From Olivibacter sitiensis DSM 17696 (GTDB lineage Bacteria; Bacteroidota; Bacteroidia; Sphingobacteriales; Sphingobacteriaceae): DNA of 33,871 nucleotides. The stretch spans positions 1-33,871 of the forward strand of contig NZ_ATZA01000051.1 of assembly GCF_000427965.1 (NCBI RefSeq). The letters are read 5' to 3'. This document shows positions 4,586 to 33,640 of the stretch, piece after piece (position 1 is the first letter of the stretch; each line of letters opens with the position of its first letter). The notes below the pieces were generated by a model that was given only the letters and a program-made list of their open reading frames with translations, was not told where the DNA came from and searched no databases. Both the position numbers and the translations under genes were made by a program.

Positions 4586-4589
4586 CCAA

Positions 4590-9739: not shown

Positions 9740-9790
9740 ATTTTGCGTATCTTAGCCCAACGTATTATTGAAGCTAAACCCAAACAGACC

Positions 9791-11569
9791 ATGTCAAAAA
9801 CTAGTGTTCCTAGGCTCATCGGCCTCTTCCTATTGATGAAAGTAAGTTGTTGCCAAATTTTTGCGCAGGAAATCCTGGATTATGCGCCATGCAACGAGAT
9901 TCCCGCTCTTATGCAAGAGTTCACTGCAGATTATGGAGCGTTAGTGCGCTTTTATACCCCATCGACTGGCTCTGGAGGACAGGCCGCTGGGGGACGTGGA
10001 ACTTCTAATACAGGTGGTTCGCCGGAGCGTACTGGACGTCTACTGAAACTATATGACGGTTATCTAAAAAGGTTGGGTGCATTGGATTTTAATGCCCTCC
10101 CACAAGAATGCAAAGTGGATTATATCCTGTTTAAGAGGGACTTAAATGACCGGCTTTCGCGAGCAAAAGAGGAGGCAAACGCGTACGAACGGGTAAAGAC
10201 CTGGTTCCCCTTTTCCAAACGGATTTATTCCTATAACAAGGATCGTCGTAGAGGACTAAGGCCAGATGCAGCTCAGCTGGCTAAGGATTGGAATCAAGCA
10301 ACCAAAGAAATCGAATCGCTTACCAACAAGCTGAAAGCTACGGAAGTATTGGACAAAGAGGACGTCGATGAATCCCTGTTGGTTATCAATGACCTGCGCA
10401 ATGCAGCAAGCAGTGTCTATGAGTTCTACAATGGATACGACCCCTTGTTTACTTGGTGGGTACCGGCCACCTATACCAAGCTGGACAGTAGCATGAACAA
10501 TTACGCTCGTCTGTTCAGACAAAAAACGGAGAAGGGCAAGGAGGTCGATAAAAGCGGCATCGTAGGCAATCCCGTAGGACGAGATGAACTTGCAAGGCAA
10601 TTGCAGTTCGAGTTCATTCCCTACTCGCCAGACGAACTGGTGGATATCGCCAACAAGGAATTTGCCTGGTGCGATGCCGAAATGCTAAGAGCAAGTAGGG
10701 AAATGGGATTTGGCGACGATTGGCATGCCGCATTGGAAAAAGTAAAGAACACCTATGTAGAACCGGGCGAACAACCCGAAATGATCTATGGCCTTTACAA
10801 AGAATCAATTGATTTTCTGAAAGAACACGATCTGATTACCGTACCGCCATTGGCGGAAGAGGTTTGGGGCATGTACATGCTTTCGCCCGAAGCCCAGAAG
10901 GTAAGTCCCTTTTTTCTGGGAGGCACCAATATCATGATCTCCTATCCAACCAATACGATGGACTACGACGATCGCATGATGAGCATGCGGGGCAATAATC
11001 CGCATTTTTCTAGGTCCACCGTGCACCACGAACTGATAGCGGGACATAACCTGCAAGGGTTCATGAACGCACGACACCGCACTTACCGCAATTTCAGGAC
11101 GCCTTTTTGGACAGAGGGTTGGGCACTCTACTGGGAACTATTGCTTTGGGACTTGAATTTTCCCAAAGGACCCGAAGATCGCATAGGTATGTTGTTCTGG
11201 CATATGCACCGCTGCGCGCGAATCATCTTCTCGCTCAATTACCATTTAGGCAAATGGACTCCACAGCAATGTATCGACTTCTTGGTCGATCGCGTGGGCT
11301 TTGAACGTGCCAATGCAGAGGGCGAGGTTCGCAGATCGTTTATTGGTAGCTATCCTCCCTTGTACCAATTAGCTTATCTTACTGGTGGTCGCCAGTTCTA
11401 TGCCTTGCACAAGGAACTAGTGGGCGGTGGAAAAATGACTGACAAAGCCTTTCACGACAAGGTTATCAGCTTGAATGCGATGCCCGTGGAAATGGTGCGG
11501 GCTATACTGACAGACCAAAAGCTGAATAAGGATTTTAAGACGAATTGGCGTTTTTATGATGGAAAGTAA
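9791..11569 (+). CDS. DUF885 putative zinc metallopeptidase, copy 1
   Basis: I place the start at the ATG at 9791 rather than the in-frame ATG at 9743, because only the later one gives a normal signal peptide (MSKTSVPRLIGLFLLM, ending IFAQ). The 592-residue product matches DUF885. It has QECKVDYILF, the FYNGYDPLFTWW block, SREMGFGDDW, SMRGNNPHFS, the metal motif HHELIAGH (H413, E414, H419) and a downstream Glu in FWTEGWALYWE (E442), a likely third ligand. Many DUF885 proteins are annotated as peptidases, but substrate is unproven. Compared with the other two copies it has a Gly/Ser/Thr-rich insert of about 19 residues after RFYTP. Its last codons overlap the GH127 gene. Confidence 0.85.
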   Translation: MSKTSVPRLIGLFLLMKVSCCQIFAQEILDYAPCNEIPALMQEFTADYGALVRFYTPSTGSGGQAAGGRGTSNTGGSPERTGRLLKLYDGYLKRLGALDFNALPQECKVDYILFKRDLNDRLSRAKEEANAYERVKTWFPFSKRIYSYNKDRRRGLRPDAAQLAKDWNQATKEIESLTNKLKATEVLDKEDVDESLLVINDLRNAASSVYEFYNGYDPLFTWWVPATYTKLDSSMNNYARLFRQKTEKGKEVDKSGIVGNPVGRDELARQLQFEFIPYSPDELVDIANKEFAWCDAEMLRASREMGFGDDWHAALEKVKNTYVEPGEQPEMIYGLYKESIDFLKEHDLITVPPLAEEVWGMYMLSPEAQKVSPFFLGGTNIMISYPTNTMDYDDRMMSMRGNNPHFSRSTVHHELIAGHNLQGFMNARHRTYRNFRTPFWTEGWALYWELLLWDLNFPKGPEDRIGMLFWHMHRCARIIFSLNYHLGKWTPQQCIDFLVDRVGFERANAEGEVRRSFIGSYPPLYQLAYLTGGRQFYALHKELVGGGKMTDKAFHDKVISLNAMPVEMVRAILTDQKLNKDFKTNWRFYDGK

Positions 11570-13931
11570 AATAATGGTTGGCATGATTAGATATAAGTCA
11601 TTGTTTTACAATATTCTGTTAGCGATCGTATTAATAGCAGCCTGTAAAAAGCAAAAAGATGTAAGGCTTGTTCATGCTTTTCCGCTTTCAGATATCAAGT
11701 TGCTGGACGGACCTTTCAAGCATGCAACAGATTTGGGAAAGGAAACCCTATTGAATTACGAACCAGATCGCTTGTTATCCAAATTTAGGAAGAACAGCGG
11801 TCTCGAACCCAAGGCTGAAAGTTACAAGGGATGGGAAGATGGTTCGCTGGCGGGCCATAGCTTAGGTCATTACCTTTCGGCCATATCGCTGATGTATCAA
11901 ACCACAGGAGACAGGCGTTTCCTCGATCGTGCCAATTATATAGTGTCCGAATTGGATTCTTGTCAGCAGGTAAGTGGCAGCGGGTATTTGGGAGCTTACG
12001 ATAAGGCAAAGTTGATTTTTGAGGAGCAAATAGCCAAAGGTGAAATAGAGTCGCAGGGATTTGACCTCAATGGTCTTTGGGCACCGTTCTACGTACAGCA
12101 CAAAATTATGGCTGGCTTGCGAGACACTTATCATTTACTGGGTAATCAACAGGCGTTGACAGTGGAAAAGCGTTTTGCCGATTGGACACAAAATATACTC
12201 AGCCTGCTGACAGAAGATCAATTACAAGAAATGTTGCACTGTGAGCATGGCGGTATGAATGAGGTACTAGTAGACCTTTATACCGACACCGAAGAAGATA
12301 AATACCTCCAGTTGGCTGATAAATTCTATCACAAGGCGGTATTAGATCCTTTGGCAAATAGGCAGGACAGTCTTTCTGGCTTACATGCCAATACACAAAT
12401 ACCCAAAGTAATAGGAATCGCCAAACGTTATGAGGCTACTGGCGACGTAAGAGATTCCATCATTGTGGCCTATTTTTGGGATCGGGTGGTAAACCATCAC
12501 AGCTATGTAACAGGTGGAAATGCAAATTTCGAGTATTTCGGCCATCCAGACCATTTGAGTAAGCGTCTGAGCGACAAGACTACCGAGACCTGTAATGTGT
12601 ATAACATGTTGAAGCTCTCGGATATATTCTTCCAATGGAATCCAGATGCCAAGATGGCCGATTATTATGAACGGGCACTGTTCAACCAGATACTGTCGTC
12701 TCAACACCCCGAAAGCGGAAACGTGATCTATAACCTTTCATTGGAGATGGGCGGGCACAAGCATTACCAAAATCCCTTTGGCTTTACTTGTTGTGTAGGT
12801 ACTGGCATGGAGAATCACGCCAAATATGCTGCCCATATATATTACTATAATGAGAATGAGCTATATGTCAATCAGTTTATTGCTTCTGAGCTAAACTGGA
12901 AAGAAAAGGGATTGAAACTTGTTCAGAACACACAATTTCCTAACGAGCAAAATACTAATTTGCTGGTCTACACTGAAAAACCAACAAAACTGACAATTAA
13001 GATTAGATACCCTTACTGGGCAGAAAAAGGCATGGTCGTAAGTGTGAACGGTGAGAAAATAAATGTGGAGAGCAAAGCGGAAAGTTATGTGTCTGTGACG
13101 AGAAAATGGAATAACGAAGATCAGATCTCAGTAGATTTTCCTTTTACCTTACGTTTGGAGGCAATGCCAGATGATAGTAAAAGAATTGCCATGCTTTATG
13201 GTCCCCTGGTCTTAGCTGGCGATCTTGGCCCATCAGACGACCCCATGGTAAACACACCCGACTATGTGCCAGTATTGTTCACTGAAAACCGTGATCCAAA
13301 AGTTTGGACACGTCCAACAGGCGAGACCAATACCTTTGCTTTGTATGAAGTGGGTAAACCGAGGGATGTGATCTTGAAACCATTTTATACTACGCATGAT
13401 AGAAATTATTCGGTCTATTTTGATATGTTTACCCAAGCGGAATGGGAAGCACAACGGGTTGCTTATGAAAAAGAAACAGAGGCAAAGCGATTGTTGGAAT
13501 CCATAACCTATGATTTTGTGCAACCAGGCGAGATGCAACCAGAGCGAGATCATAATTTTCAGGGAGAAGGGACTCATACGACCTCGCAACAAGGACAAAA
13601 AGCAAGACAGGCAGAACGGGGTGGCTGGTTTTCCTTTGACATGAAAGTAAGCGGCGAGGAACCTATGGCACTTGCTGTTGATTATTGGGGGGGATACACC
13701 GGATCCAAAACCTTTGATATATTGATAGACGATGTGAAAGTTGCTACCGAGAATATTTCCGGCAAAAAAGACGGAGCTTTCTTGACGGAAAAATATGCTA
13801 TACCAGCTGGTCTTCTACAAGGTAAGAAAAAGATTACGGTGAAATTTCATCCTCACAAAGGACATCGCGCAGGTCCAGTGTTCGGTTTGCGCACCATCCG
13901 ATCGATAAACTTAAATGAAAAGGGCAGCTAG
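11556..13931 (+). CDS. GH127 family beta-L-arabinofuranosidase, lipoprotein
   Basis: The frame starts at 11556, overlapping the DUF885-1 end by 14 nt. ATGs at 11574 and 11583 are also possible, and the last gives the neatest lipoprotein signal. From 11556 the length is 791 residues with lipobox LIAAC (C30). The GH127 (DUF1680) domain covers about 40-600. Residues fitting the known enzyme HypBA1 are acid/base E326 in NFEYF, metal ligands E344 and C346 in TETC, and C412/C413 in FTCC, one being the nucleophile. A C-terminal beta domain (about 650-785) follows. Characterised members release L-arabinofuranose from hydroxyproline-linked oligosaccharides; some act on other furanosides. It sits between two DUF885 genes in one operon. 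Confidence 0.88.
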   Translation: MMESKIMVGMIRYKSLFYNILLAIVLIAACKKQKDVRLVHAFPLSDIKLLDGPFKHATDLGKETLLNYEPDRLLSKFRKNSGLEPKAESYKGWEDGSLAGHSLGHYLSAISLMYQTTGDRRFLDRANYIVSELDSCQQVSGSGYLGAYDKAKLIFEEQIAKGEIESQGFDLNGLWAPFYVQHKIMAGLRDTYHLLGNQQALTVEKRFADWTQNILSLLTEDQLQEMLHCEHGGMNEVLVDLYTDTEEDKYLQLADKFYHKAVLDPLANRQDSLSGLHANTQIPKVIGIAKRYEATGDVRDSIIVAYFWDRVVNHHSYVTGGNANFEYFGHPDHLSKRLSDKTTETCNVYNMLKLSDIFFQWNPDAKMADYYERALFNQILSSQHPESGNVIYNLSLEMGGHKHYQNPFGFTCCVGTGMENHAKYAAHIYYYNENELYVNQFIASELNWKEKGLKLVQNTQFPNEQNTNLLVYTEKPTKLTIKIRYPYWAEKGMVVSVNGEKINVESKAESYVSVTRKWNNEDQISVDFPFTLRLEAMPDDSKRIAMLYGPLVLAGDLGPSDDPMVNTPDYVPVLFTENRDPKVWTRPTGETNTFALYEVGKPRDVILKPFYTTHDRNYSVYFDMFTQAEWEAQRVAYEKETEAKRLLESITYDFVQPGEMQPERDHNFQGEGTHTTSQQGQKARQAERGGWFSFDMKVSGEEPMALAVDYWGGYTGSKTFDILIDDVKVATENISGKKDGAFLTEKYAIPAGLLQGKKKITVKFHPHKGHRAGPVFGLRTIRSINLNEKGS

Positions 13932-14010
13932 CACTTGCTAGATATAGTTGTAGAATAAGGTATTGGCATGGATCAACTATGAATGAGTGTCTAACTTACT
14001 TTTTTTGACG

Positions 14011-15738
14011 ATGAGAGTTAATTTTAAGTGCTTAATGTGTGCGCTTACCTTCGCGGTTTTTACCAAGCTATCGTATTCCCAGTCTTACTCGGAAACAAAG
14101 GATAAGTTTGTTCCTTGTGACGTGATGCCTCAGCTGCTACATCACTTCAATGCTGACTATGCGGCACTCCAACGTTTTTATGTGGTGCGGCAGTCACCGG
14201 CTAGAAGAGCTCGGCTGGAAAACTTATATAGCGACTACATCAATCAATTGGATGGAGTCGACTTTAAGTCACTTTCGCAGGAATGTAAGGTGGACTACCT
14301 TTTGTTCGGCAGGGATTTGAGGGAAAAATTGCGCTTGTCCAAAGAAGAAGCGAACGAATTGCATCAAGTGGCTTTCCTTTTCCCGTTTGCAGATAAAATC
14401 TATGAAGCGGAAAAGCAGCGAACACGAGGAACCTACTTGGACTCTAAGAAACTGGCCATCGACCTACACCATACCACCCTAGAAATTGGTGCATTGAGTA
14501 CAAGTCTACGGGACAGCGCCATTATCCTAGATGCCACCTCTATCGTGCGTGCAGAGGAAACCATCAATGGTCTAAAGACGGCATTGAATAGCGTCATGGA
14601 GTTTTACAATGGGTATGATCCCTTGTTTACCTGGTGGGTGCCTGTGCCGGCAGGTCAGGTGGATTCTGCCCTGACGGCCTATGCCACAGTCATTAAATCA
14701 AAGGGGAAAACATTAGGTAAATATAATATCATTGCCCGTACACCCGTAGGAAAGGAGGAATTAAGTAAATTGCTTGAGCACGCTTTAATTCCTTATACCA
14801 TAGACGAACTGATAGCTATTGCAACCAAGGAGTTTGAATGGTGTGAAACGGAGTTCAGGAAAGTATCGCGGGATATGGGGTTTGGAGATGATTGGAAGAA
14901 GGCCGTGGAATTTGTCAAAGATACCTATGTGGATCCTGGCCATCAACCAGAAGCGATCTATGACTTGTACAAGCAGTCCGTAGACTTTGTCAACGCACAT
15001 GACCTCGTTACCGCCCCGCCCCTGGAAGAAGAGGTGTGGGGTATGAAGATGAGGCCTTCGGAAAGGGGCAGTGGTCGTTTTTTCCAAGGGGGACGAGATA
15101 TTACAATTACCTATCCCACCAACAACTGGTACATCAATTACCGTTTGGAGAGCATGCGTGGCAACAATCCCAATTTTTCGTTTGCTACGGTGCACCATGA
15201 GTTGATTCCCGGCCACAATGCTACATCCTATAATGACCAGCGCTACCGTTCCTACAGGAACTTTGGCTCTTCTTTTTCTGGAGAAGGCTGGGCGCTCTAT
15301 TGGGAGTTCTTATTGTGGGACATGGGCTTCCCTAAGACCAACGAACAAAAGATCGGTATGCTGTTTTGGCGTATCCATAGAGCAGCGAGAATTATTTTCT
15401 CCTCCAATTTCCAGATGGGCAACTGGACGCCAGACCAATGCGTGGACTTTTTGGTCAACAAGGTGGGCCACGAGTTTGGGAATGCTATTTACGAAGTGGG
15501 CGGACACGTGAGACCTAATAACTACCCCTTATACCAATTATCCTACTTGGTGGGCGGTCTGCAATTCTATTCACTAAAGAAAGAATTGGTAGACAGTGGA
15601 AAAATGCCTATTAAGGAGTTCCATGACAATATTCTGCACTTAAGTAGTATGCCCGTGGAAATGGTCAGAAATATCTTTTTGGACAATAAACTGATCGAGA
15701 ACTACCAATCAAACTGGAAATTCTATAATTTCAGGTAG
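14011..15738 (+). CDS. DUF885 putative zinc metallopeptidase, copy 2
   Basis: The ATG at 14011 is chosen because it starts a clean signal peptide (MRVNFKCLMCALTFAVF, ending SYSQ). An in-frame GTG at 13987 is less likely. The product has 575 residues and the same blocks as copy 1: QECKVDYLLF, FYNGYDPLFTWW, SRDMGFGDDW and SMRGNNPNFS. Its metal motif, HHELIPGH (H396, E397, H402), is the most typical of the three because it keeps the Pro usual in the family. E425 in SGEGWALYWE is the likely further ligand. It is the last gene of the DUF885-1/GH127/DUF885-2 unit, 79 nt after GH127, and a strong terminator follows 22 nt later. Confidence 0.87.
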   Translation: MRVNFKCLMCALTFAVFTKLSYSQSYSETKDKFVPCDVMPQLLHHFNADYAALQRFYVVRQSPARRARLENLYSDYINQLDGVDFKSLSQECKVDYLLFGRDLREKLRLSKEEANELHQVAFLFPFADKIYEAEKQRTRGTYLDSKKLAIDLHHTTLEIGALSTSLRDSAIILDATSIVRAEETINGLKTALNSVMEFYNGYDPLFTWWVPVPAGQVDSALTAYATVIKSKGKTLGKYNIIARTPVGKEELSKLLEHALIPYTIDELIAIATKEFEWCETEFRKVSRDMGFGDDWKKAVEFVKDTYVDPGHQPEAIYDLYKQSVDFVNAHDLVTAPPLEEEVWGMKMRPSERGSGRFFQGGRDITITYPTNNWYINYRLESMRGNNPNFSFATVHHELIPGHNATSYNDQRYRSYRNFGSSFSGEGWALYWEFLLWDMGFPKTNEQKIGMLFWRIHRAARIIFSSNFQMGNWTPDQCVDFLVNKVGHEFGNAIYEVGGHVRPNNYPLYQLSYLVGGLQFYSLKKELVDSGKMPIKEFHDNILHLSSMPVEMVRNIFLDNKLIENYQSNWKFYNFR

Positions 15739-15759
15739 AAATACTTTTTATAGGAAGAA

Positions 15760-15797
15760 GAATGCCTTACGATTGATTCGTAAGGCATTCTTTTTTT
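15760..15797 (+). terminator. Rho-independent terminator after DUF885-2
   Basis: Arms GAATGCCTTACG (15760-15771) and CGTAAGGCATTC (15779-15790) pair perfectly over 12 bp with a 7-nt loop, followed by seven T. It separates the first operon from the SusC/SusD operon. Confidence 0.92.
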
Positions 15798-15966
15798 AAT
15801 ATAGATATTAGTTACAATATCTTACAACTACCAATACCTGTAATGTGCCTAAATTCTTTTTCCGAACAACGTAGTTAGGAACTAGAGTTTATGCTAACCA
15901 ACCCTTGTTGGCAGTGGAAAATCACAAGGATAGTGAACATTTAAACGAGAAATGGACTAGGCAATC

Positions 15967-15998
15967 GCAATGTCTTTTGTTACATAACAAAGCAATGT
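15967..15998. promoter_or_regulatory. Palindrome flanked by direct repeats upstream of susC
   Basis: TTTGTTA (15976-15982) and TAACAAA (15985-15991) form a perfect inverted repeat around CA. A GCAATGT direct repeat flanks it at 15967-15973 and 15992-15998. The site lies about 85 bp before the -7 box, a usual place for an activator. Confidence 0.45.
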
Positions 15999-16074
15999 GT
16001 ATTAGGTAATTACAATAGTTAAATATTGGTTTAAAGAAGTTAATATACGGTTAGCAAACCGCCATCCTCCCAGT

Positions 16075-16082
16075 TATATTTG
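16075..16082 (+). promoter_or_regulatory. Candidate -7 box of the susC operon
   Basis: TATATTTG is an exact TAnnTTTG match. The best -33 candidate is TTA at 16051-16053, 21 nt upstream, which is weak. The same octamer is found before the decayed DUF885-4 gene. Confidence 0.45.
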
Positions 16083-16301
16083 TATTGTTGAACCGGTATT
16101 CCGGACAACCGCTCACCAAAAAAACAATCGTTAAATTTTGAGGGTAATTGTGCCATGTTTTGCTGGCACGAGAGCTATCAGAATATGGCAATAGTCACCG
16201 CCCTTTTCCAGATAGTTGCTTTTTTTAATTGTGATATGGATATGTTGTATATATACATATTCGTGTCCTCCAAAAACAGAAAATTAACTAAACTAAATAA
16301 T

Positions 16302-19300
16302 ATGAAAAAAAGAGTAGTACTTTTTATCTGTTGTCTCTTTATGATACATGGTGTCATAGCGCAACAAAAAACCGTTACAGGAAAAATAACGGCGGCCAGT
16401 GATGGCTTGGCCGTGCCAGGTGCATCTATAAAAGTGGAAGGATCGAATGTTGGAACGCAGACTGACGCCAGTGGTTCTTATTCTATCCAAGTGGCCGAAG
16501 GCGCTACGTTAATTATATCTTCAATTGGTTATCAACCACACCGTATTACGGTTGGAACAACTAGTCGTTATGACGTCACGTTAAGCGAGCAGGCTACGGA
16601 TCTAAATGAAGTGGTAGTTACCGCATTGGGTATTTCCAGGGAGAAACGATCACTGGGGTATTCTACACAGGAAATATCTGGAGATGTCGTGAGTACAATT
16701 AATACTGGAAATGTCACCAGTGCACTTTCCGGTAAAGTGTCGGGTGTGCAAATTCGTTCCAATAATGGATTAGGAGCTTCTGCCAGCATTGTAATTCGAG
16801 GGAATAAGTCGCTAACTGGTAATAATCAGGCTCTATGGGTGGTGGATGGTGTGCCTATTGATAACTCAAATAGGAACTCGACCAATAACGGCTATGATTT
16901 TGGAAATCTGGCTACCGATATTAATCCGGATGACATCGAATCTGTGAATGTGTTGAAAGGGGCAGCGGCTACGGCACTGTACGGATCAAGAGCTGCAAAT
17001 GGGGCCATTATTATTACCACAAAGAAGGGGGACAAGAAGGTGGGAGTTGGCATTGCCGTTAATTCATCTACAACATTTGGAACTATTAATAGGAGTACTT
17101 TTGCGGAGTATCAGACAGAATATGGGGCAGCTTATGGTCCCTTGTCTGGAGGATTGCAGTCAAATAATTATTTTGTGCAAGAAGACGTTGATGGTGATGG
17201 CGTGCTGGATCTAGTGGCTCCATATACTCAATATGGTGGTTTCGGTGCTGCTTACGATCCCAATTTGATGGTTTATCAATGGGATTCGTTTTACCCAGAA
17301 TCACCCTATTATATGCAGCCACGTCCTTGGGTGATGCCTGATAGTGATCCTTTGGAGCTCTTTCAAAATCCGGTAACGCTGAACAATAGCTTGTCTCTGA
17401 CTGGAAATGACACTAAGACAACTTATCGTTTTTCTTATACGAATTTTTACGACAGAGGTATTGTACCTTATCAATCCTTGAACAGAAATGTTTTTTCCTT
17501 CAATGGATCGTTAAAGTTAACACCAAAGATGAAAGCTACAGCCATGGCAAATTACACCGTATCGGGTACAAGGGGCAGAAATCAGCGCGGAACGGGTAGC
17601 TCATATAGTAACTACATAGTTAATATCCGTCAATATTGGCAGCCAAATATTGATTTCAGCAGGGTTGAAGGAAGTATATGAGTTGACTAAATTAAATCTT
17701 ACACAATTTCCAAATGGCACCATAGATAATCCCTACTATGTTATCGAAAATAACCAGCAGTCGGACGATAGAAATCGTTTTGTGGGCAATGCCTCTTTGT
17801 CTTATCAGCTAACAGACTGGCTCGAAGTCTATGGTAGGGTAGCGGTCGATAGCTATAATTATATCATGGAAGAGAGGCAAACGGACCTGATACGGGTGCC
17901 AGCAAGGTACAATATACGGAATGTGGCATTCACCGAGGCGAACTACGACCTCATGTTTAATTACAATAAGGATATTACCGAGAAATTTAACACAAGTGGT
18001 GTGTTCGGGACAAATATCCGTCGTAGTAAGAACCAATCCATATACAATTCTACCAGTGGAGGTTTAATTGTAAAAGACTTATATGCCATCAATAATTCAG
18101 TAGCCAACCCGCCCGCAGCTACGGAGACTTTCACAAAGATAGGAGTGAATGGTTATTTTGGTTCACTATCATTGGGGTATGATAAGACATACTATCTCGA
18201 TGTGACTGGGCGGGTGGACCAGTCCTCTACGCTTCCCGAAAAGAACAACACCTATTTTTACCCCTCCGTGGCGGCTAGTTTTGTGTTTTCCGAATTATTG
18301 CACAGCTCGGTGCTTTCTTTTGGCAAACTGAGGTTAAATTATGCCGAAGTAGGCAATGATGCTCAAGCGCAGAGTTTATTTGACGTGCTGAACAAGTCGG
18401 CATATGCATTTGGCTCGGCTCAGCGTTATTCGGTTAACGATACCAAAAACAATGAAAATCTGAAATTGGAAAGTACGCGGAGTTGGGAGGCTGGTGTGGA
18501 AACCTCCTTTCTGAACGGAAGAGTCTCATATAATGCTTCCTTATATAACACTAATACGTTGAATCAGATCATGCCAGTTTCCGTTACTGCGGCTACGGGC
18601 TATACGCGGAAATACGTTAATGCAGGTGACGTCAGAAACAGGGGGATAGAAATGACCCTTTCTGGTAAGCCTCTTGTAAAACAGGGTTTCTCCTGGACCA
18701 TAGACTTAAACTGGTCTATGAATCGTAGTAAGGTCATGTCTCTTTATGAAGGGGTAAATAACCTAAATCTGGGAAACTACAGTACAGACATGTCACTTAA
18801 CGCAACGGCTGGGCGACCATTCGGTGAATGGCGGGGCTCTGATTTTGTGTACCTCGATGGTAAACCAGTAATCAACCAAACTGACGGCAAATATTTAAAA
18901 TCTGATGCTACTTCAGTTTTGGGTGACATGAACCCCGACTGGATAGGTGGTTTGATGAATACGTTCACGTATAAGAACTTATCATTTAAATTCTTGATTG
19001 ATATGCAAACTGGCGGTGACATATTCTCCGAAGATATGGCAATCGGAACTAGGAATGGCCTTTACAGCAATACTACCGGTCTAAATGAACTGGGAAATCC
19101 CATGCGTGATCCGATTTCTGCGGGAGGAGGTCTGTTGCTGGATGGTGTTGCACCCGATGGAACTGTCAATACAATACGCACGGAAATGAGAGATCGAAAC
19201 CATGCCTTGGGTTCGCCAAGCGCGCCCAGTGTCATGTTCCTTTACGATGCTTCGTATGTGAAGTTACGGGAAGTGTCCTTATCGTACACTTTACCTTCAA

Positions 19301-19491: not shown

Positions 19492-19503
19492 AAAACTATT
19501 CAC

Positions 19504-20943: not shown

Positions 20944-20976
20944 GTTAAGTGTAAATGTGATTGGAAATTAAAGAAT

Positions 20977-24805: not shown

Positions 24806-26258
24806 TATGGGGTCGTCTGTCCCTTTGGAAATCGCGCCAGCAGAAAACAAGGAAGAGACCAAATTCAGACCCTCCCTGCGTTTGATAGATGCGACCATGC
24901 TGGTGGCAGGCAGCATGATAGGCTCGGGTATCTTCATCGTAAGTGCCGATATCGTGCGCCAAACGGGTAGCTCGGGCTGGTTGATGGTGATATGGGCCAT
25001 AGCCGGTTTCATGACCCTGATTGCGGCATTGAGCTACGGCGAACTGAGCAGCATGTTTCCCAAGGCAGGTGGCATGTATATCTATCTGAAGGAAGCCTAT
25101 GGCTCTTTGGTGAGCTTTCTCTACGGCTGGAGCTTTTTCACGGTGATACAGACAGCTACCATTGCCGCCGTGGGTGTTGCCTTTGCCAAGTTCACGGCCT
25201 ATATCTTTCCCTCGGTGAGTGAGGACCTGGTGCTTTTTGATCTTGGGTTCCTGCTGGTTTCTCCCGCTCAGGTTCTGAGCATTGTCGTCATCTTTGTCTT
25301 GACCTATGTGAACACCTTAGGGGTGAACAATGCCAAATGGGTGCAGACGATAATCACCCTCGCTAAGATAGGTAGCTTGGCGGCATTGGTTGTATTTGGA
25401 CTCTTTCATTTGGACAGCTCGGTCTGGGCAGCCAATTGGGCCTCTGGAAGTTCTTGGGACCTACATCGATTGAATATCGATGGCACGATAGAAACCTATA
25501 CTACCATGGCTGCCTTTGGTGCGGTGGCCGCGGCCATGGTAGGCTCTATTTTCAGTAGCGATTCTTGGCACAATGTGGCCTTCATTGCCGGGGAGGTGAA
25601 AAATCCCAAACGCAACGTAGCCTTGAGCTTGGCCTTGGGAACCATTATCGTGACGGTACTCTATATCCTGACCAATATCATGTATACGGGTGTGCTTACT
25701 TTACAAGAAATGGCTTCGGCCGAGAAAGACCGTGTGGCGGTGACGGCCTCACAGGTTATCTTCGGCTCGTCGGGTACGGCCATCATTGCCATCATGATTA
25801 TGGTATCAACTTTTGGATGCAACAACGGGCTCATCATGGCCGGCGCCAGGGTATACTATTCTATGGCGAAGGACGGGCTGTTTTTCAAAAAAGTGGGCGT
25901 GCTGAGCAGCCGTGCAGTACCGGCGATAGCTTTATGGCTGCAGGCCGTAATCGCTTCCTTATGGTGTCTGAGTGGTCGTTATGGAGATTTGTTGGACATG
26001 ATCTCCTTTGTCGTGGTGATATTTTATATGCTGACGATAGTGGGAATCTTTATACTGCGCAAAAAAAGACCTGATTTGCCTAGACCCTACAAGGCTTTCG
26101 GCTTTCCTATACTGCCTATCGTATACATCCTGATGGGACTGTCATTTTGCATACTGCTGATTATTTATAAGCCAAATTATACTTGGCCTGGGCTTATCAT
26201 TACCTGTTCTGGCATACCCATTTATTATTTAATTGCAAAAAAACAGTTAGATGATTAA
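24789..26258 (+). CDS. APC-family amino-acid permease
   Basis: The 489-residue protein (or 483 from the ATG at 24807) has about 12 membrane helices. The first carries the APC signature GSMIGSGIFIV, which binds the amino-acid backbone. Later features are FPKAGGMYIYLKEAYG in helix 3 and the GEVKNPKRNVALSLALG loop, followed by a helix 8 region with the small-residue pattern usual in LAT-like members. It should bring amino acids, and perhaps small peptides, across the inner membrane, either by exchange or with protons. The substrate is unknown. It overlaps the decayed DUF885-4 gene and, by 8 nt, the M61 gene. This tight context links it to peptide breakdown. The deletion upstream leaves its own reading frame intact. 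Confidence 0.9.
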   Translation: MTSKNDMGSSVPLEIAPAENKEETKFRPSLRLIDATMLVAGSMIGSGIFIVSADIVRQTGSSGWLMVIWAIAGFMTLIAALSYGELSSMFPKAGGMYIYLKEAYGSLVSFLYGWSFFTVIQTATIAAVGVAFAKFTAYIFPSVSEDLVLFDLGFLLVSPAQVLSIVVIFVLTYVNTLGVNNAKWVQTIITLAKIGSLAALVVFGLFHLDSSVWAANWASGSSWDLHRLNIDGTIETYTTMAAFGAVAAAMVGSIFSSDSWHNVAFIAGEVKNPKRNVALSLALGTIIVTVLYILTNIMYTGVLTLQEMASAEKDRVAVTASQVIFGSSGTAIIAIMIMVSTFGCNNGLIMAGARVYYSMAKDGLFFKKVGVLSSRAVPAIALWLQAVIASLWCLSGRYGDLLDMISFVVVIFYMLTIVGIFILRKKRPDLPRPYKAFGFPILPIVYILMGLSFCILLIIYKPNYTWPGLIITCSGIPIYYLIAKKQLDD

Positions 26259-27771
26259 ATTCCGTTATTTAATAGTCCTACTAAATAGTTTATTGCTATG
26301 TGCCCTCGCTCATGCGCAGGATACCCTACGCTACCATGTCTCCTTTGCATTTGACACTGTGCCACGCTTTTTGGTAAAACTCGATACGAAAGTCAAACCG
26401 AACGAATACCCGGAGCTACGCATGCCGGTATGGAGCCCTGGATATTACCAATTGCTCAATTATGGTCAATATGTGGACAACGTGGAGGCCAAGGACGACA
26501 AAGGGGCTACGCTAAAAGTAGAGCGCGTGGATACCAGTACATGGAAAATATGGACCAAGGGAAGCAGTGAGGTGAGCTTAGGCTATAGGGTGCGCATGGC
26601 TAGGCAATTTGTGGCTGAAAATGCGCTGGATAGTGCACATGCCTACATCATACCTACTGCCACATTTGCTTATACCAAGGAGTGGTTAAAAAGACCCTCG
26701 GTAGTTACCGTTGATAAGCCCCATTTTTGGAAAGATGTCGCTACAGGTCTGGACAGAGTAACATCGGTAGTAGGGCAAGCGTTCGAGGCAAGTGACATGG
26801 ATCAGCTTTATGATTGCCCGATACTCATCGGGAACCTCACCCAATTGCCCTCTTTTGAGGTTGCGGGAATAAGTCATTATTTCTACGCTTATGATGTGCC
26901 GGAGGGCGATTATCAGGTATTTATTGATACATTGGGTCGAATCGTTAAGGCGGCAAGCGATGTCATTGGTGAAATACCATACAGGCATTATACCTTTATC
27001 GGCATAGGAAAGGGGGCTGGAGGAATAGAGCATACAAATTCTACGACGGTGAGTTTTTCCAATCCCTTACTGACTGGCCGTGCGGGAAAAAGGCAGTTCA
27101 GTTTTCTTGCGCATGAATACTTTCATCATTATAACCCCAAACGAATTCGCCCCTTGGAACTCGGACCATTTGACTACGGTAAGCCCGATAGAACCAAACA
27201 GTTGTGGATTTCGGAAGGTTTGACCGTCTACTATGAACAATTTATTTTGTACAAAGCAGGTGTATTGGATAGAGCAGGTGTGCTATCCCAATGGCTTGCA
27301 CAGATCAATACTTATGAATCCAAGCCGGGCAAGGCATTCCAGACGCTGGCACAATCTAGTGAGCATACCTGGGAAGACGGCCCCTTCGGCGATCAGTCGG
27401 GCAAGACGATATCCTATTACGAAAAAGGCCCCATAGTGGGGCTCTTGCTAGATATAAGTATCAGAAAATCGACCAAAGGAACTAAATCGTTGCAGGACGT
27501 AATGCGTTACCTGTATGATACTTATGCCAAGAAACTGGATCGAGGCTTTACCGAAAATGAATTTTGGGCTACTTGCCGGCATGTTGCCGGTACCGACCTG
27601 ACAGATATTAAAGACTATGTATATACAACCAAGCCGCTTGACTATGATAAATATTTAGGCTATCTAGGTCTACAATTGGTTAAAATTGACGATGAAAACA
27701 CCTTTGTAATGAAACCGTTGTCCCAAATAGACAGCGAACAGGCGAAATTGCTGGATGTTTTTTTTGAATAG
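26251..27771 (+). CDS. M61-family aminopeptidase (glycyl aminopeptidase type), no PDZ domain
   Basis: The 506-residue protein has a signal peptide (MIKFRYLIVLLNSLLLC, ending AHAQ), an N-terminal beta domain with MPVWSPGYY (58-66), and the gluzincin site HEYFH (H288, E289, H292). The site is followed by NPKRIRP and the third ligand E322 in WISEGLTVYYE. This matches M61, whose characterised members prefer N-terminal Gly or Ala. Usual M61 proteins continue with a PDZ domain and are near 600 residues; this one stops where that domain would begin. The ATG overlaps the end of the permease gene by 8 nt. The enzyme would act in the periplasm on imported peptides. Confidence 0.88.
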   Translation: MIKFRYLIVLLNSLLLCALAHAQDTLRYHVSFAFDTVPRFLVKLDTKVKPNEYPELRMPVWSPGYYQLLNYGQYVDNVEAKDDKGATLKVERVDTSTWKIWTKGSSEVSLGYRVRMARQFVAENALDSAHAYIIPTATFAYTKEWLKRPSVVTVDKPHFWKDVATGLDRVTSVVGQAFEASDMDQLYDCPILIGNLTQLPSFEVAGISHYFYAYDVPEGDYQVFIDTLGRIVKAASDVIGEIPYRHYTFIGIGKGAGGIEHTNSTTVSFSNPLLTGRAGKRQFSFLAHEYFHHYNPKRIRPLELGPFDYGKPDRTKQLWISEGLTVYYEQFILYKAGVLDRAGVLSQWLAQINTYESKPGKAFQTLAQSSEHTWEDGPFGDQSGKTISYYEKGPIVGLLLDISIRKSTKGTKSLQDVMRYLYDTYAKKLDRGFTENEFWATCRHVAGTDLTDIKDYVYTTKPLDYDKYLGYLGLQLVKIDDENTFVMKPLSQIDSEQAKLLDVFFE

Positions 27772-27793
27772 AAAAATGTAATTGACACAGACG

Positions 27794-30043
27794 ATGAAAG
27801 AAAGATTTGGAATAGTGGTTTTTTTAATTTTCGGCATGCTACAGGCCTTTGCACAGGGAACTAGGGCCGACTATGACCGAGCGGATTCTCTTAAAAAGGC
27901 GATACAGGGCAAGGTGAAATTCAGTCCATGGAACATCAAGGCCATTGGTGACTCACATCGATTTGTCTATACCCAATATACGGACAAGGGCGTAGAGTTT
28001 ATCGAGATCAATGCAGACGATAGAACAAAGTCGGCTGCCTTTGATCAAGTACGTTTGGCCAAGTCCTTGGCCGCTGCTAGTAGCGAGACCGTAGAAGCTT
28101 ATAAATTGCCCTTTACTGAAGTCAACTATAGTAGAAAACAGGATAGCCTATTGTTCAGCGCTTTTGGCAAAAATTGGGCATGTAGCCTGAATGACTATAC
28201 CGTGAAGCCATCCGAAGCGACAGGAAGGAATGCGCGGGGCTATTGGGGAAATAGAGGCGATGATAGAAAAGGAGAACCCATTGCCTCGCCAGACAAAAAG
28301 TGGTTGGCCTATGTGAAAAATTTCAACGTATACGTAAAAGCCGCCGATGGCAAAGGGGAGGAGATGGCATTGAGTTTTGATGGTTCTGAGGGCGAGTATT
28401 ATTCGGCTTTCATCAGTTGGTCCCCCGACTCCAGGAAACTGGCTGTTAACAAGGTGCGTCCCAATACCGAGCATAAGATTTACCTCATCGAATCTTCCCC
28501 AAGCGACCAGCTACAGCCCAAGCTGCAATCGAGGGATTACCTGAAACCTGGCGACGCCTTGCCCCAGCGTTTCCCTACCTTGTTTGTTTTGGACGGTAAA
28601 AAGCGAATACAAGTGCCACACGATCTGGTACCCAATCAATACGATGTGTCTGCACGATTGCAGTGGCGCAAAGATAGCCGTGCTTTTACCTTTGAGTACA
28701 ATGCGCGCGGGCATCAGGAGTACAAAATATACGAGATGGATGCGAGCACGGGAGAGGCAAAGACCTTGATAGCGGAAAACAGCAAGACATTTATCGACTA
28801 CAGCGGCAAGAAATACCGCTATGACGTGGCAGATGGAAAGGAGGTAATTTGGGCATCGGAAAGGGATGGCTGGAATCATTTGTACCTGTACGATGGTATA
28901 ACCGGAAAGGTGAAAAATCAAATTACCAAAGGTGAGTGGGTGGTGCGTAAAGTGATACATGTGAACGAAGAACAGCGGAAGATTATTTTTGAGGGAAGCG
29001 GAAAGGACAAGGGTGTAGATCCCTACCTCATCCAATATTATATGGTCAATTTTGATGGTTCGGGACTTCGTGCGTTGACGGATAGTCCTGTCAATCACTC
29101 GGCCACTTTTTCTGCCGACTTTTCTTGTTTCGTCGATCATGCATCGCGGGTGGATCAGCCATCGACTACGGTGTTGCGAAATGCTACAGATGGAAAAGTA
29201 TTGATGGAATTGGAAAAATCCAATATTGATGGGCTGTTGCAGACTGGCTGGAAAATGCCGGAAGTTTTTTCCGCCAAAGGCAGGGACGGGCAGACGGACA
29301 TTTGGGGTATCATTGTGAGACCGACCAATTTCGACCCGAGCAAAAAATATCCGGTCATTGAATACATCTATGCCGGACCACATAGCTCCTTTGTGCCCAA
29401 ATCTTTCACTGCCAACCTACCCGCTAGCCTACACGAACTGGCCGAATTGGGTTTTATCGTGGTGCAGATAGACGGAATGGGCACGTCCAACCGCTCCAAG
29501 GCTTTTCACGACGTTTGCTGGCAAAACCTAAAGGATGCCGGTTTTCCAGACCGTATTGCTTGGATGAAAGCGGTGGCAGCAAAATATAGTTATATGGATT
29601 TGGACAAGGTGGGTATTTTCGGCACCTCTGCTGGGGGGCAAAGTTCGGCCGGAGCCGTATTGTTCCACAACGACTTTTACAAAGTGGCAGTATCATCTTG
29701 CGGTTGCCACGACAACAGAATGGACAAGATCTGGTGGAACGAGCAATGGATGGGATTCCCGATAGGGGAGCATTACGCTGCCTCTTCCAATGTGGTCAAT
29801 GCTCACAAACTCCAAGGCAAATTAATGTTGATTGTGGGTGAAGTGGATGACAATGTAGATCCTTCCTCTACCTATCAGGTAGTCAATGCATTGATAAAGG
29901 CCAATAAGAATTTCGATTTTCTAATGGTACCGGGCATGCCCCATTCTTCCGGTGGCGAATATGGAGAGCACAAGCGTAGGGATTATTTCGTGAAGCATCT
30001 ACTGGGAATCGATCCACCCGTTTGGGATGGGATGGATTATTAG
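27794..30043 (+). CDS. S9-family prolyl/dipeptidyl peptidase (DPP-IV-like)
   Basis: The ATG at 27794 is chosen over an in-frame TTG at 27782; it opens the signal peptide MKERFGIVVFLIFGMLQ, ending AFAQ. The product has 749 residues: a beta-propeller domain (about 50-480, with SPDKKWLAY, SWSPDSRKLA and WASERDGWNHLYLYD) and a C-terminal hydrolase domain. In this numbering the catalytic residues are S612 in GTSAGG, D685 in GEVDDNV and H717 in GMPHSSG. The usual aromatic residue after the Ser is Ala here. Family members remove X-Pro or X-Ala dipeptides. It begins 22 nt after the M61 gene and is probably co-transcribed with it. Confidence 0.9.
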   Translation: MKERFGIVVFLIFGMLQAFAQGTRADYDRADSLKKAIQGKVKFSPWNIKAIGDSHRFVYTQYTDKGVEFIEINADDRTKSAAFDQVRLAKSLAAASSETVEAYKLPFTEVNYSRKQDSLLFSAFGKNWACSLNDYTVKPSEATGRNARGYWGNRGDDRKGEPIASPDKKWLAYVKNFNVYVKAADGKGEEMALSFDGSEGEYYSAFISWSPDSRKLAVNKVRPNTEHKIYLIESSPSDQLQPKLQSRDYLKPGDALPQRFPTLFVLDGKKRIQVPHDLVPNQYDVSARLQWRKDSRAFTFEYNARGHQEYKIYEMDASTGEAKTLIAENSKTFIDYSGKKYRYDVADGKEVIWASERDGWNHLYLYDGITGKVKNQITKGEWVVRKVIHVNEEQRKIIFEGSGKDKGVDPYLIQYYMVNFDGSGLRALTDSPVNHSATFSADFSCFVDHASRVDQPSTTVLRNATDGKVLMELEKSNIDGLLQTGWKMPEVFSAKGRDGQTDIWGIIVRPTNFDPSKKYPVIEYIYAGPHSSFVPKSFTANLPASLHELAELGFIVVQIDGMGTSNRSKAFHDVCWQNLKDAGFPDRIAWMKAVAAKYSYMDLDKVGIFGTSAGGQSSAGAVLFHNDFYKVAVSSCGCHDNRMDKIWWNEQWMGFPIGEHYAASSNVVNAHKLQGKLMLIVGEVDDNVDPSSTYQVVNALIKANKNFDFLMVPGMPHSSGGEYGEHKRRDYFVKHLLGIDPPVWDGMDY

Positions 30044-30100
30044 TTGATTGGTTGTGAATAGTGGATTTGTCATTGGTTTATAGTTGGTCAGCGAGCCGTT

Positions 30101-30161: not shown

Positions 30162-30228
30162 TGCTGAAAGCTGACAGGTTGTTATTGAGGTATTTGCTTT
30201 TAGTGGAATGCCCGTACTTTAGATAGAA

Positions 30229-32943
30229 ATGGTTTTAAAGAAGATTTCAGGTTTGGGAATGATCTTGTCCATGACAATAGGTCTTTCATTTGCACAGTCG
30301 CCATGGGAAAGATTGGCACAAAGGCCATCGGTATTGGAACTGGATAAAGGCCTTATAAAAGGCACAAGCCAATCACTGCTATTGGAGCTGGTGAGTAGTT
30401 CGCAAACGGTCAGTTCGCTAAGGCCAAAAAGCGATGAGCACTTTGACTTTACGCCGAATGACCGCCTGCAAATGAGAAGCGGGAATGGCTTATATCACCT
30501 GGGGGACGTCAATATCCGCTATCGGCTAGGCGAACAGGATGATTGGCAGTCGGTTTCTACTGCTGCCGATCGGAAAGCGGTGACAGCCCTGACGACGGGA
30601 GAGGGGCATATCTTGGCAACGGCCGATTTGGCCAATACCCTGCCTACCGATCTACCCTTTGGCATCAAGCGTTCGTGGGAGGTGATAGATGGAAGGCTGA
30701 CCCTCAAATTTGAATTGCAGAACAAATCTTCGGTGCCATTGGAAATAGGTGCCTTGGGCATTCCCATGATATTCAACAACATCTTGCACGAGAAATCCTT
30801 GGAAGATGCTCATACCCAGAACGTGTTTTATGATCCCTACATTGGAAAGGATGCGGGTTACCTACAGGTTTCCCGATTGGACGGTAAGGGAAATGTCCTG
30901 CTGGTGGTACCTTATGGCCAGACACCTTTTGAGGCATACCGTCCATTGCTGGACGATCCGACGCCTAGGGGCATTACCTTTGAAGGTTTCCACGAATGGA
31001 TGCTCTGTAGCAAAGCTTATGCCGGGAACGAATGGAAAGGAATTGAACAGTGGAACGAGGCTACCTCTTTGCTGTTGGAACCCAATGATGTACGGGTATT
31101 TGGCTTGCAGTTTGTCCTTGCCCCAGAAATCAGGATGATCGAGCAAACACTTTTGGAAAACAAAAGACCGGTGGCCATGGGTGTACCCGGGTATGTGGTG
31201 CCGATGGATGTGGAAGCCAAATTGTTTCTGCAGTACCCCGAAAGAGTACGGAGCATGGAGGTTTATCCAAAAGATGCACTGACGATAAGTCAGGTTAAGC
31301 ATAAAGATAAGGGAATCCAATCTTATGCGGTAAAAGGAAGGAAATGGGGTAGGGCAAGGCTTACCGTGACCTATAAAGACGGATTGAAGCAGACGATTAA
31401 TTACAAGGTCGTCAAGCCTGAATCGGAATTGGTAGCCGACGTGGGGCATTTCCTGACTACGGAACAGTGGTTTGACCAGCCCAATGACCTTTTTGGGAGG
31501 AATCCATCCGTCATCAGTTATGATTATGAGGCAAAAAAGCAAGTTACCCAAGACAGCAGGGCATGGGTGGCAGGACTGAGCGACGAAGGAGGTGCCGGTA
31601 GCTGGCTAGCGGCCATCATGAAGCAATTGGTATTGCCAGATAAGGAAGAGGTAAAGCAATTGGAACAATTCGTCAATCAGACCTTATGGGGGAATATCCA
31701 ACATAAGGAAGGCGCTCGAAAATACGGGGTAAAAAAGAGCGTTTTTTACTTTGAGCCCGATTCCATGCCAAAAGGTACCTATAGCGATAGCATCAATTAC
31801 AAGGTTTGGTCGGCCTGGAACAAAAAGGGAGCCGATGATGTAGGCCGTTCTTACAACTATCCGCATGTGGCGGCCGCTCACTGGGTGTTTTATCGGCTTG
31901 CTCGGTTCCATCAAGGTTTGGTCTCCGAAAGACCTTGGGCATGGTACTTGGAAAATGCGTTCCATACCAGTATGGCTATGGTGAACCAAGCACCTCATTA
32001 TGCCCAGTTTGGCCAAATGGAAGGAACCATATTTCTCCTGGTGTTGAGTGATTTGAAGTCGGAAGGGTATATAGACATGGCCAATGAATTGGAAATGGCT
32101 ATGAAGAAAAGGGCGGATCACTGGCGTAGCCTCAAATATCCTTTTGGCAGCGAAATGCCCTGGGACTCTACCGGTCAGGAAGAAGTCTACATGTGGTCGG
32201 ATTACTTTGGCTATGCGGATAAGGCGGAGGTCACCTTAAATGCCATCATGGCTTATATGCCCACCATACCGCATTGGGCTTATAATGGCAATGCCCGTAG
32301 GTATTGGGATTTCCTATATGGAGGTAAAATTTCTAGGGTAGAAAGACAGATCCATCACTATGGATCGGCCTTGAATGCTATCCCCGTACTAAAGGCATAC
32401 AAAAAGGAGCCCACGGATCTGTACCTGCTCCGAGTGGGTTATGGTGGATTGCTGGGCGGAATTGCCAATGTGACCCAAGATGGCTTTGGTCCTTGTGCCT
32501 TTCATTCCTATCCATCTACCTTGGATATAGACCCCCTGTCGGGCGACTATGGCAGTGGCTTTTTTGGTTATGCTGTCAATACATCCAGTTACCTGATTGA
32601 GGATAAACGCTTGGGCTGGCTTGGCTTTGGCGGTAATGTTGAACAGAAGAAAGATTGGATCAGCTTGGAGCTGACCAATGGGGCAAAGGACAAGGTATTT
32701 ATAGCACCGGCAAAATTATGGATTACCTTGGATGCAGGGAAAATAGAAAGTGTGAGCTACCACGCAAAGAACGGTAAGGTAAAGCTCGTTCTCGCCAAAG
32801 GAGGTGAACATACGCCTCAAGCTTTCCTCCATGTCTATGATGCTGATGGCAATATCTCGGAGAAGGTAAAGCATAGGTTAGACTTGAAACAAAATACCCT
32901 TATTGTGGATGTACGAGAAAATGGTGCTACGCTAAATTTTTAG
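30229..32943 (+). CDS. Large secreted DUF5695-like protein, putative carbohydrate-active enzyme
   Basis: The 904-residue protein has a signal peptide (MVLKKISGLGMILSMTIG, ending SFAQ). Residues about 30-400 look beta-rich, and about 420-780 are helical, with repeated Trp/Tyr/His-rich blocks such as SYNYPHVAAAHWVFYRLAR, QMEGTIFL, EEVYMWSDYFGYA and GFGPCAFHSYPSTLDIDPLSG. This arrangement of a beta-sandwich before an (alpha/alpha)6-type barrel is common in polysaccharide lyases and glycosidases. I believe it matches DUF5695, but this is from memory of the family's appearance. No function is known to me. It lies 185 nt after the S9 gene and is closed by a terminator. Confidence 0.6.
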   Translation: MVLKKISGLGMILSMTIGLSFAQSPWERLAQRPSVLELDKGLIKGTSQSLLLELVSSSQTVSSLRPKSDEHFDFTPNDRLQMRSGNGLYHLGDVNIRYRLGEQDDWQSVSTAADRKAVTALTTGEGHILATADLANTLPTDLPFGIKRSWEVIDGRLTLKFELQNKSSVPLEIGALGIPMIFNNILHEKSLEDAHTQNVFYDPYIGKDAGYLQVSRLDGKGNVLLVVPYGQTPFEAYRPLLDDPTPRGITFEGFHEWMLCSKAYAGNEWKGIEQWNEATSLLLEPNDVRVFGLQFVLAPEIRMIEQTLLENKRPVAMGVPGYVVPMDVEAKLFLQYPERVRSMEVYPKDALTISQVKHKDKGIQSYAVKGRKWGRARLTVTYKDGLKQTINYKVVKPESELVADVGHFLTTEQWFDQPNDLFGRNPSVISYDYEAKKQVTQDSRAWVAGLSDEGGAGSWLAAIMKQLVLPDKEEVKQLEQFVNQTLWGNIQHKEGARKYGVKKSVFYFEPDSMPKGTYSDSINYKVWSAWNKKGADDVGRSYNYPHVAAAHWVFYRLARFHQGLVSERPWAWYLENAFHTSMAMVNQAPHYAQFGQMEGTIFLLVLSDLKSEGYIDMANELEMAMKKRADHWRSLKYPFGSEMPWDSTGQEEVYMWSDYFGYADKAEVTLNAIMAYMPTIPHWAYNGNARRYWDFLYGGKISRVERQIHHYGSALNAIPVLKAYKKEPTDLYLLRVGYGGLLGGIANVTQDGFGPCAFHSYPSTLDIDPLSGDYGSGFFGYAVNTSSYLIEDKRLGWLGFGGNVEQKKDWISLELTNGAKDKVFIAPAKLWITLDAGKIESVSYHAKNGKVKLVLAKGGEHTPQAFLHVYDADGNISEKVKHRLDLKQNTLIVDVRENGATLNF

Positions 32944-33635: not shown

Positions 33636-33640
33636 TTTAA

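Follow-up and report, generated by a model that had tools for sequence, protein, structure and literature searches.

The window, which is the whole stretch of 33,871 nucleotides of Olivibacter sitiensis DSM 17696 analysed here, lies on contig C54 of a 5.05 Mb genome in 110 contigs and carries a block of genes that a Pfam scan of the window proteins placed entirely on the + strand. The block begins with a DUF885 gene (copy a, 9743-11569, with ATG 9791 as likely start), followed by a GH127-superfamily, GH146-like enzyme with Pfam catalytic and middle domains and a DUF6805 domain (11556-13931) and by a second DUF885 gene (copy b, 13987-15738). SusC is divided between an N-terminal part with CarboxypepD_reg and plug domains (16155-17681) and a C-terminal part with the beta-barrel (17650-19491). 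A SusD-like_2 protein (19504-20943) comes next and a third DUF885 protein directly after it (copy c, 20977-22737). Then come a luciferase-like monooxygenase (TIGR03858, 23088-24116), the C-terminal fragment of a fourth DUF885 gene (24596-24805), an amino acid permease (PF13520, 24789-26258), an M61 peptidase (26251-27771), an S9/DPPIV-type peptidase with DPPIV_N and S9 domains (27782-30043) and a DUF5695 protein (30229-32943, 1331.4 bits in Pfam). Motifs are unbroken in the three DUF885 proteins (HExxxGH and EGxALYWE), the glycoside hydrolase (GH), the M61 peptidase (HExxH) and the S9 peptidase (GxSxGG). The initial annotation had described SusCD, three intact DUF885 proteins, M61, S9, the permease, the GH and DUF5695 on one strand, and Pfam confirmed this. 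The luciferase-like gene and the DUF885 fragment were missing from its gene list; the former lies within the block but is probably unrelated to it. No tRNA genes were found in the window.

The adjacency of SusC and SusD, a PUL hallmark, is present, with SusC frame-changed. The two SusC ORFs overlap in different frames, and an intact relative (70-75% identical) aligns to one frame over residues 1-455 and to the other over 454-1061, which points to a single frame change, either real or an assembly error. Since SusC is frame-shifted and one DUF885 gene has decayed, the copy of the block in this strain may be failing. Gaps are short inside the groups DUF885a-GH-DUF885b, SusC-SusD-DUF885c and permease-M61-S9 and longer between them, and they include gaps of 416, 350, 672 and 185 bp; three or more transcription units are therefore more likely than the single operon proposed at first. 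A promoter and terminator scan over 9400-29000 showed no enrichment relative to shuffled sequences (39 promoters vs a mean of 36.5, 14 terminators vs 17.2), so the borders of these units are supported by the gaps only.

The GH had been labelled GH127. The superfamily and the motifs hold: the Pfam GH127 catalytic domain is matched at 410 bits, and the protein has ETC at position 344 and CCxGT at position 412, which provide the Glu-x-Cys and Cys-Cys zinc/nucleophile motifs. The N-terminus is lipobox-like, as judged by eye. The family assignment does not hold, as Pfam detects no GH127-type C-terminal domain (PF20737) in this protein, DUF6805 being found instead, and the best solved relative is 5opj (499 bits), which we take to be BT0349, a GH146. 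The scores are 228 bits for 8k7x, 78 bits for 6ex6 and 70 bits for the GH127 chain 4qjy; 3wkw, presumably HypBA1, was not among the six solved matches at E 0.001. We treat 5opj and 8k7x as GH146 enzymes. When membership of GH127 is defined by PF20737 plus closest likeness to GH127 proteins, the window enzyme fails and a GH127 protein of a same-genus relative (G063) passes; the window enzyme meets the GH146 definition of highest similarity to a characterised GH146. On sequence evidence it is thus nearer GH146 than GH127, without a formal CAZy assignment and with its activity inferred. According to the accessible parts of PMC10850190, the characterised GH146 enzymes include some that hydrolyse Araf-beta-Hyp or the beta1,3-Araf of AGPs. 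Because GH146 enzymes acting on such linkages are known, the proposal of hydroxyproline-rich glycoproteins (HRGPs, here meaning the extensin-type and arabinogalactan-type proteins found in the walls of plants and algae) as substrate survives the renaming of the enzyme.

The DUF5695 protein has an export signal, as judged by eye. No solved relative was found by single-sequence search. A profile of 20 sequences searched against PDB sequences to E 10 gave 5no8 as the sole match (E 3.6e-9), with 0.0034 for the best single stretch and about 15% identity. The structural model (pLDDT 84.9, pTM 0.88) also has 5no8 as its best PDB match (E 1.8e-24, TM 0.60 query / 0.79 target), the next different protein, a GH116, following far behind (5.7e-7, TM 0.22), and it meets the PL27 fold of an N-terminal beta-sandwich and an (alpha/alpha)6-barrel. 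The available portions of PMC8377490 describe 5no8 (BACCELL_00875) as a PL27 built as a beta-sandwich plus (alpha/alpha)6 barrel and acting on gum arabic, where its beta-elimination at glucuronate releases rhamnose. Because of the fold and profile match to this L-rhamnose-alpha-1,4-D-glucuronate lyase, DUF5695 is probably glycan-active and perhaps acts on HRGP glycans; the activity is inferred and the catalytic residues are unmapped. At about 15% identity, and being longer, the window protein is only remotely related to PL27 and we have not filed it there. In openly licensed PMC literature we found only incidental mention of DUF5695.

The three DUF885 proteins match PF05960 at 144.5-162.9 bits (cut-off 32.4), and the four DUF885 matches of the window genome, one of them the fragment, all lie inside the block. 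Copy a has an export signal, again judged by eye. The H-E-x3-G-H motif and downstream Glu residues are invariant in 27 DUF885 sequences. A model of copy c (pLDDT 87.8) matches the three solved DUF885 structures, whose function is unknown (3u24, 3iuk and 3o0y), with angiotensin-converting enzyme as a weak further match (E 2.7e-3, TM about 0.3). DUF885 is placed in the Peptidase_MA clan, according to the part of PMC12572635 that was available. A zinc-peptidase role fits the invariant residues, with peptidase activity itself remaining a prediction. No title found in openly licensed PMC literature had DUF885 function as its subject.

A tree of 38 DUF885 proteins puts the three window copies together with most of the copies that lie beside SusD in relatives into one group (group I; 13 entries, support 85/73, of which 12 have 95/97). 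The 21 entries of a second group (84/99) include 18 that adjoin a permease gene, a count made by hand from locus stretches chosen around hits. The window fragment, directly upstream of the permease, is 81-82% identical to the permease-linked copies of the same genus in this second group and at most 65% identical to the first. From this likeness it can be inferred that the strain has lost its permease-linked DUF885 and retained the SusCD-linked type.

In relatives, the neighbours of DUF885 include genes for an AraC regulator, a DHDPS-family protein, an aldehyde dehydrogenase, a PF05544 protein and a FAD D-amino-acid oxidase-type protein (DAO). These families form the route from trans-4-hydroxy-L-proline to 2-oxoglutarate. 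The window genome holds the set AraC-DHDPS-ALDH-Pro_racemase-DAO on contig C85, that is, on a contig other than that of the block, so physical linkage within this genome is unproven. The C85 PF05544 protein reaches 564 bits with the 4-hydroxyproline epimerase model NF010578 (cut-off 376) and 317 bits with the proline racemase model, under its cut-off of 556; it stays under the cut-offs of the 3-hydroxyproline dehydratase model and of two other 4-hydroxyproline-epimerase models. Its nearest solved chains are named proline racemases (276 bits). For the other four proteins of the set, no specific NCBIfam cut-off was reached among the matches listed. NF010578 was passed by all seven Bacteroidota relatives tested (573-607 bits), or 8/8 with the window genome, while three Bacillota PF05544 proteins scored 254-369 bits with it, passed no cut-off and had proline racemase as top score. 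Judged by these model scores, 4-hydroxyproline is the best assignment for the Bacteroidota epimerase, not proof.

Co-occurrence was counted in 151 genomes of the family, the window genome among them. DUF885 is present in 41 (copy c as query, E<=1e-50), PF05544 in 52, DUF5695 in 34, and homologs of the window GH in 55 (E<=1e-100); PF05544 is counted at family level (proline racemase/hydroxyproline epimerase). PF05544 occurs in 39/41 genomes with DUF885 vs 13/110 without it and in 33/34 with DUF5695. DUF885 and DUF5695 occur together in 30 genomes, all 30 of which have PF05544. The genes are also close to each other: DUF885 and PF05544 lie within 20 kb in 23/39 genomes, over six genera, with about 0.4 expected; DUF885 and DUF5695 in 23/30 (window counted); PF05544 and DUF5695 in 21/33; and DUF885 and the GH in 9/30, chance expectations being 0.29-0.44 for each 20-kb pair. 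A GH127-superfamily gene is within 20 kb of PF05544 in at least 17 of the 46 genomes holding both (expected 0.8), which is a lower bound because it rests on the 150 PF07944 matches listed. The expectations were calculated for genomes of 5 Mb and without correction for phylogeny. Pair counts within 20 kb used 37 of 43 DUF5695 matches, the remaining six being further pieces of the same genes, and the six-genera and best-GH-hit neighbour counts used 33. The GH127-superfamily, six-genera and best-GH-hit counts used one of two broken DUF885 pieces of one genome (G007) and start-to-start distances. Unbiased counts are the per-genome presence of GH, DUF885, PF05544 and DUF5695 in the family and the phylum-level counts. 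The co-occurrence in relatives that the initial annotation had asked to be checked is strong for DUF885, DUF5695 and the 4-hydroxyproline catabolic genes, and above chance but weaker for the GH.

These linkages bear on the plainest reading of the block, that of ordinary oligopeptide uptake by SusCD, peptidases and permease with the GH and DUF5695 as chance neighbours. In general proteolysis SusCD is often combined with S9/M61 peptidases, and the luciferase-like gene is evidence that unrelated genes can sit in the block. Nevertheless, the DUF885-DUF5695-PF05544 linkage far exceeds chance, both in several genera and in a different family, and linkage of the GH exceeds it more weakly. We rejected this explanation on the 20-kb linkage of the three families across genera and hold it to be very improbable.

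The gene order in relatives was read from stretches selected for hits to DUF885, PF05544, DUF5695 or the GH, which do not form an unbiased sample. The four same-genus relatives sampled each hold PF05544, two DUF885 types and DUF5695 inside 40-53 kb. In all four, the DUF885, permease and S9 genes are consecutive, and DUF5695 comes either immediately afterwards or after one intervening gene. On the opposite side, three of them (G015, G052 and G063) have GH97, two of these also a GH51-like gene, and the fourth a GH43-type gene; G015 continues with genes for an AraR-like regulator and for an FGGY kinase. M24 aminopeptidase P/prolidase, DPPIV, GH43, GH51-like, GH97 and GH127 proper are also found in the loci of relatives. 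A genome of another family (G347) has M61-AraC-DHDPS-ALDH-PF05544-DAO-permease-S9-GH-DUF885-DUF5695-GH43-M24-DUF6055 in series, co-directional save for AraC. M24 was identified there by Pfam; the other labels, like those of the GH-fetched and Bacillota loci below, were assigned by blastp (E 1e-15) to a reference set of our own, a search that may overlook distant genes. At phylum level, PF05544 is over the cut-off in 9/13 DUF5695 genomes vs 79/296 overall, three of the four DUF5695 genomes without it belonging to one family (f23). Outside the family, PF05544 is within 20 kb of DUF5695 in 3/9.

Loci fetched with the window GH gave a different picture. Searching genome contigs with it returned 18 loci, of which two contained PF05544 and none DUF885; in most of these loci, which come from further afield, the co-occurrence is missing. 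Both of the loci with PF05544 are from Bacillota. The Cohnella locus (L018) has M24, DAO, two PF05544 genes, DHDPS, aldehyde dehydrogenase, GH127 twice, a GH146-like gene, M3, M24 and a DUF5695 gene whose protein matches at 214 bits, and the Paenibacillus locus (L011) has DHDPS, AraC, GH, two M24 genes, DAO and PF05544 with other genes interspersed. Ten loci at 52-61% identity, mostly from Bacteroidota (L001-L008, L010 and L016), had no PF05544, DUF885 or DUF5695 within their stretches of 7-22 kb, many of them short; one S9 gene was the sole partner recognised, and none of ten neighbours identified by Pfam in three of these loci was a module gene. A draw of 197 genomes centred on Cohnella yielded 82 with a GH hit, from which we checked stretches of 12.6-20 kb around 11 of the 12 close hits (the twelfth being L018) and, as controls, 9 of the 74 remaining matches. 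The 11 close hits included one with PF05544, DHDPS and S9, two others with M24 (one of these with GH127) and eight without a recognised partner. No PF05544 was found in the nine distant controls, one of which had DHDPS- and GH127-like genes. Since most GH-fetched loci lack the module genes, the window-type GH branch also serves other settings, and the genes in tight linkage are DUF885, DUF5695 and PF05544.

The absence of PF05544 from 16 of these 18 loci, together with 5opj as the nearest solved relative at 499 bits, would also suit a role in pectic arabinan side chains, the GH acting on arabinan oligosaccharides like BT0349 and the peptide genes being incidental. However, the window genome has a separate and much closer 5opj relative (892 bits) on contig C45, beside araA and genes for an FGGY kinase and a class II aldolase, that is only 37% identical to the window GH, and its presence makes the arabinan role less likely. 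BT0349, a GH146 of a rhamnogalacturonan-I locus according to the accessible text of PMC10850190, is of the same superfamily and has the same zinc-cysteine motifs as the window GH, but is more distant from it than from this paralog of the arabinose locus. Furthermore, the closest homologs of the window GH in the family sit near hydroxyproline genes: among the 16 best hits (46-100% identity, window included), 11 have PF05544, DUF885 or DUF5695 at a distance of up to 20 kb, vs 3 of the other 55. No arabinanase was found by Pfam among the window proteins scanned. We regard the arabinan role as improbable.

The main rival to a plant glycoprotein substrate is a locus for animal hydroxyproline peptides such as collagen or gelatin, in which S9/DPPIV, M61, DUF885 and the permease would handle Gly-Pro-Hyp and the neighbouring GH and DUF5695 genes would serve another purpose. 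Hydroxyproline occurs in collagen too; hydroxyproline catabolism and X-Pro peptidases fit this substrate equally well, and 32/41 DUF885 genomes have no window-type GH within 20 kb. On the other hand, the linkage of GH127-superfamily genes to PF05544 exceeds expectation as given above, GH43, GH51-like and GH97 genes recur in the chosen stretches of relatives' loci, and DUF5695, which accompanies PF05544 in nearly every family genome that has it, resembles an AGP-directed lyase. We know of no arabinose or rhamnosyl-glucuronate in collagen. Because GH and PL27-like genes are present, we prefer plant HRGPs and consider the collagen alternative unlikely. The initial proposal of a plant hydroxyproline-rich glycoprotein substrate is supported by the conserved linkage of DUF885 and DUF5695 to 4-hydroxyproline genes, the substrate itself being inferred. 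Its emphasis on extensins was too narrow given the resemblance of DUF5695 to the AGP-directed PL27, and we have widened it to HRGPs generally.

Several parts of such a system are already known separately, namely HRGP arabinosidases in Bifidobacterium and Xanthomonas and hydroxyproline catabolism. Bifidobacterium longum likewise uses GH127/GH146 beta-L-arabinofuranosidases on HRGP arabinosides (HypBA1/HypBA2/HypAA and the GH146 enzymes Bll3 and Bll4), but with an ABC transporter, and the parts of the sources available describe no SusCD, DUF885, DUF5695 or hydroxyproline catabolism in that cluster (PMC10850190, PMC7263609). The xehypBA1/BA2/AA cluster of Xanthomonas euvesicatoria likewise has a GH146 enzyme acting on Araf-Hyp, as far as the accessible text of PMC10850190 goes. 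It also has an adjoining prolyl oligopeptidase gene, a likeness to the window peptidases; this is described as a pseudogene, and no DUF885, DUF5695 or hydroxyproline genes appear there in the excerpts available (PMC6085000). An in silico account of HRGP degradation in Latescibacteria also takes GH127 as an extensin arabinofuranosidase alongside peptidases, whereas no linked locus, SusCD or hydroxyproline catabolism is described in its accessible passages (PMC4454575). The gene families of the bacterial trans-4-hydroxy-L-proline pathway are present on C85 and beside the loci of relatives but, unlike in the known pathway, are linked here to glycan-active enzymes and SusCD. The linkage of SusCD, DUF885, DUF5695, a GH146-like enzyme and hydroxyproline catabolism looks new. 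A locus combining an expansion of DUF885 with GH127 in one operon had been called unfamiliar, and we found no description of the gene set in the titles, abstract starts and passages of openly licensed PMC literature.

We conclude that the block is probably a SusCD-linked utilisation locus for HRGPs. The gene content, the conserved linkage and the presence of the epimerase gene set and araA in the window genome are direct observations, and the substrate, the order of steps, the locations of the proteins and their activities are inferred from them. HRGPs resist proteolysis through their sugar coats and imino-acid backbones, and the block would cover that half of an HRGP-feeding system which takes them up and processes them. 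SusCD would bind HRGP fragments and import them. The exported PL27-like DUF5695 protein and the GH146-like enzyme would strip sugars from the peptides, that is, uronate-capped arabinogalactan ends, beta-L-arabinofuranose and perhaps Araf on hydroxyproline. Cleavage of the bared imino-acid-rich peptides would then fall to the exported DUF885 proteins, which are putative metallopeptidases, and to M61 and S9, and the permease would carry products into the cytoplasm. There the C85 set (AraC, DHDPS-family deaminase, aldehyde dehydrogenase, epimerase and FAD D-amino-acid dehydrogenase) may convert 4-hydroxyproline to 2-oxoglutarate, and arabinose may enter metabolism via AraA. More speculative, and in our estimate falling short of an even chance, is the broader proposal that DUF5695 and DUF885 are both dedicated to hydroxyproline-rich glycopeptides, the former as a new family of lyases or hydrolases and the latter as a new type of peptidase, and that together with the GH146 branch and hydroxyproline catabolism they make up a complete HRGP-to-central-metabolism system across Bacteroidota, with a counterpart in Bacillota. 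A system taking both sugar and peptide to central metabolism would explain the use of HRGPs as carbon and nitrogen source, and DUF885 and DUF5695, two families of unknown function, gain a concrete and testable substrate hypothesis.

The genes at 274-9518, upstream of the block, encode an M14 carboxypeptidase, a histidine kinase and response regulator, a Na+/H+ exchanger, a dienelactone hydrolase and an NDH2-type dehydrogenase, and nothing indicated that they belong to it. Inside the block, a luciferase-like monooxygenase of the TIGR03858 family (23088-24116) formed a singleton cluster, with no homologue among the relatives' stretches compared. By eye only, transposase-gene-like pieces were seen at the ends of both the window (33400-33871) and C85, the contig of the same genome that carries the hydroxyproline gene set (positions 1-336, stretch L070). 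These ends may be the cause of the contig break that separates the window from the hydroxyproline genes.

A second GH146-like gene of this genome, a close relative of the solved structure 5opj, was found in stretch L071 (G000:C45:96000-114000). It adjoins genes for L-arabinose isomerase, an FGGY kinase and a class II aldolase, and GH97- and GH43-cluster genes are also present, so that L071 is probably an arabinan/arabinose locus.

In Bacillota, GH146-like, proline-racemase-family and M24 peptidase genes were clustered together in Cohnella sp. (L018), with an additional GH127, and in Paenibacillus alkalitolerans (L011). No SusC- or SusD-like gene was recognised in either cluster. In three stretches from one genus (L050, L054 and L055), ornithine-cyclodeaminase-family and acyl-CoA-dehydrogenase-family genes lie beside DUF885, possibly representing another imino-acid route; the family labels come from Pfam searches on L050 and on the L052 member, respectively.

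Finally, DUF5695 genes were found in L103, L113 and L115, from genomes of family f23 in which PF05544 (proline racemase/hydroxyproline epimerase) over the cut-off is absent. Because DUF885 and S9 genes still follow DUF5695 in L103, despite this absence, the role of DUF5695 may extend beyond hydroxyproline.
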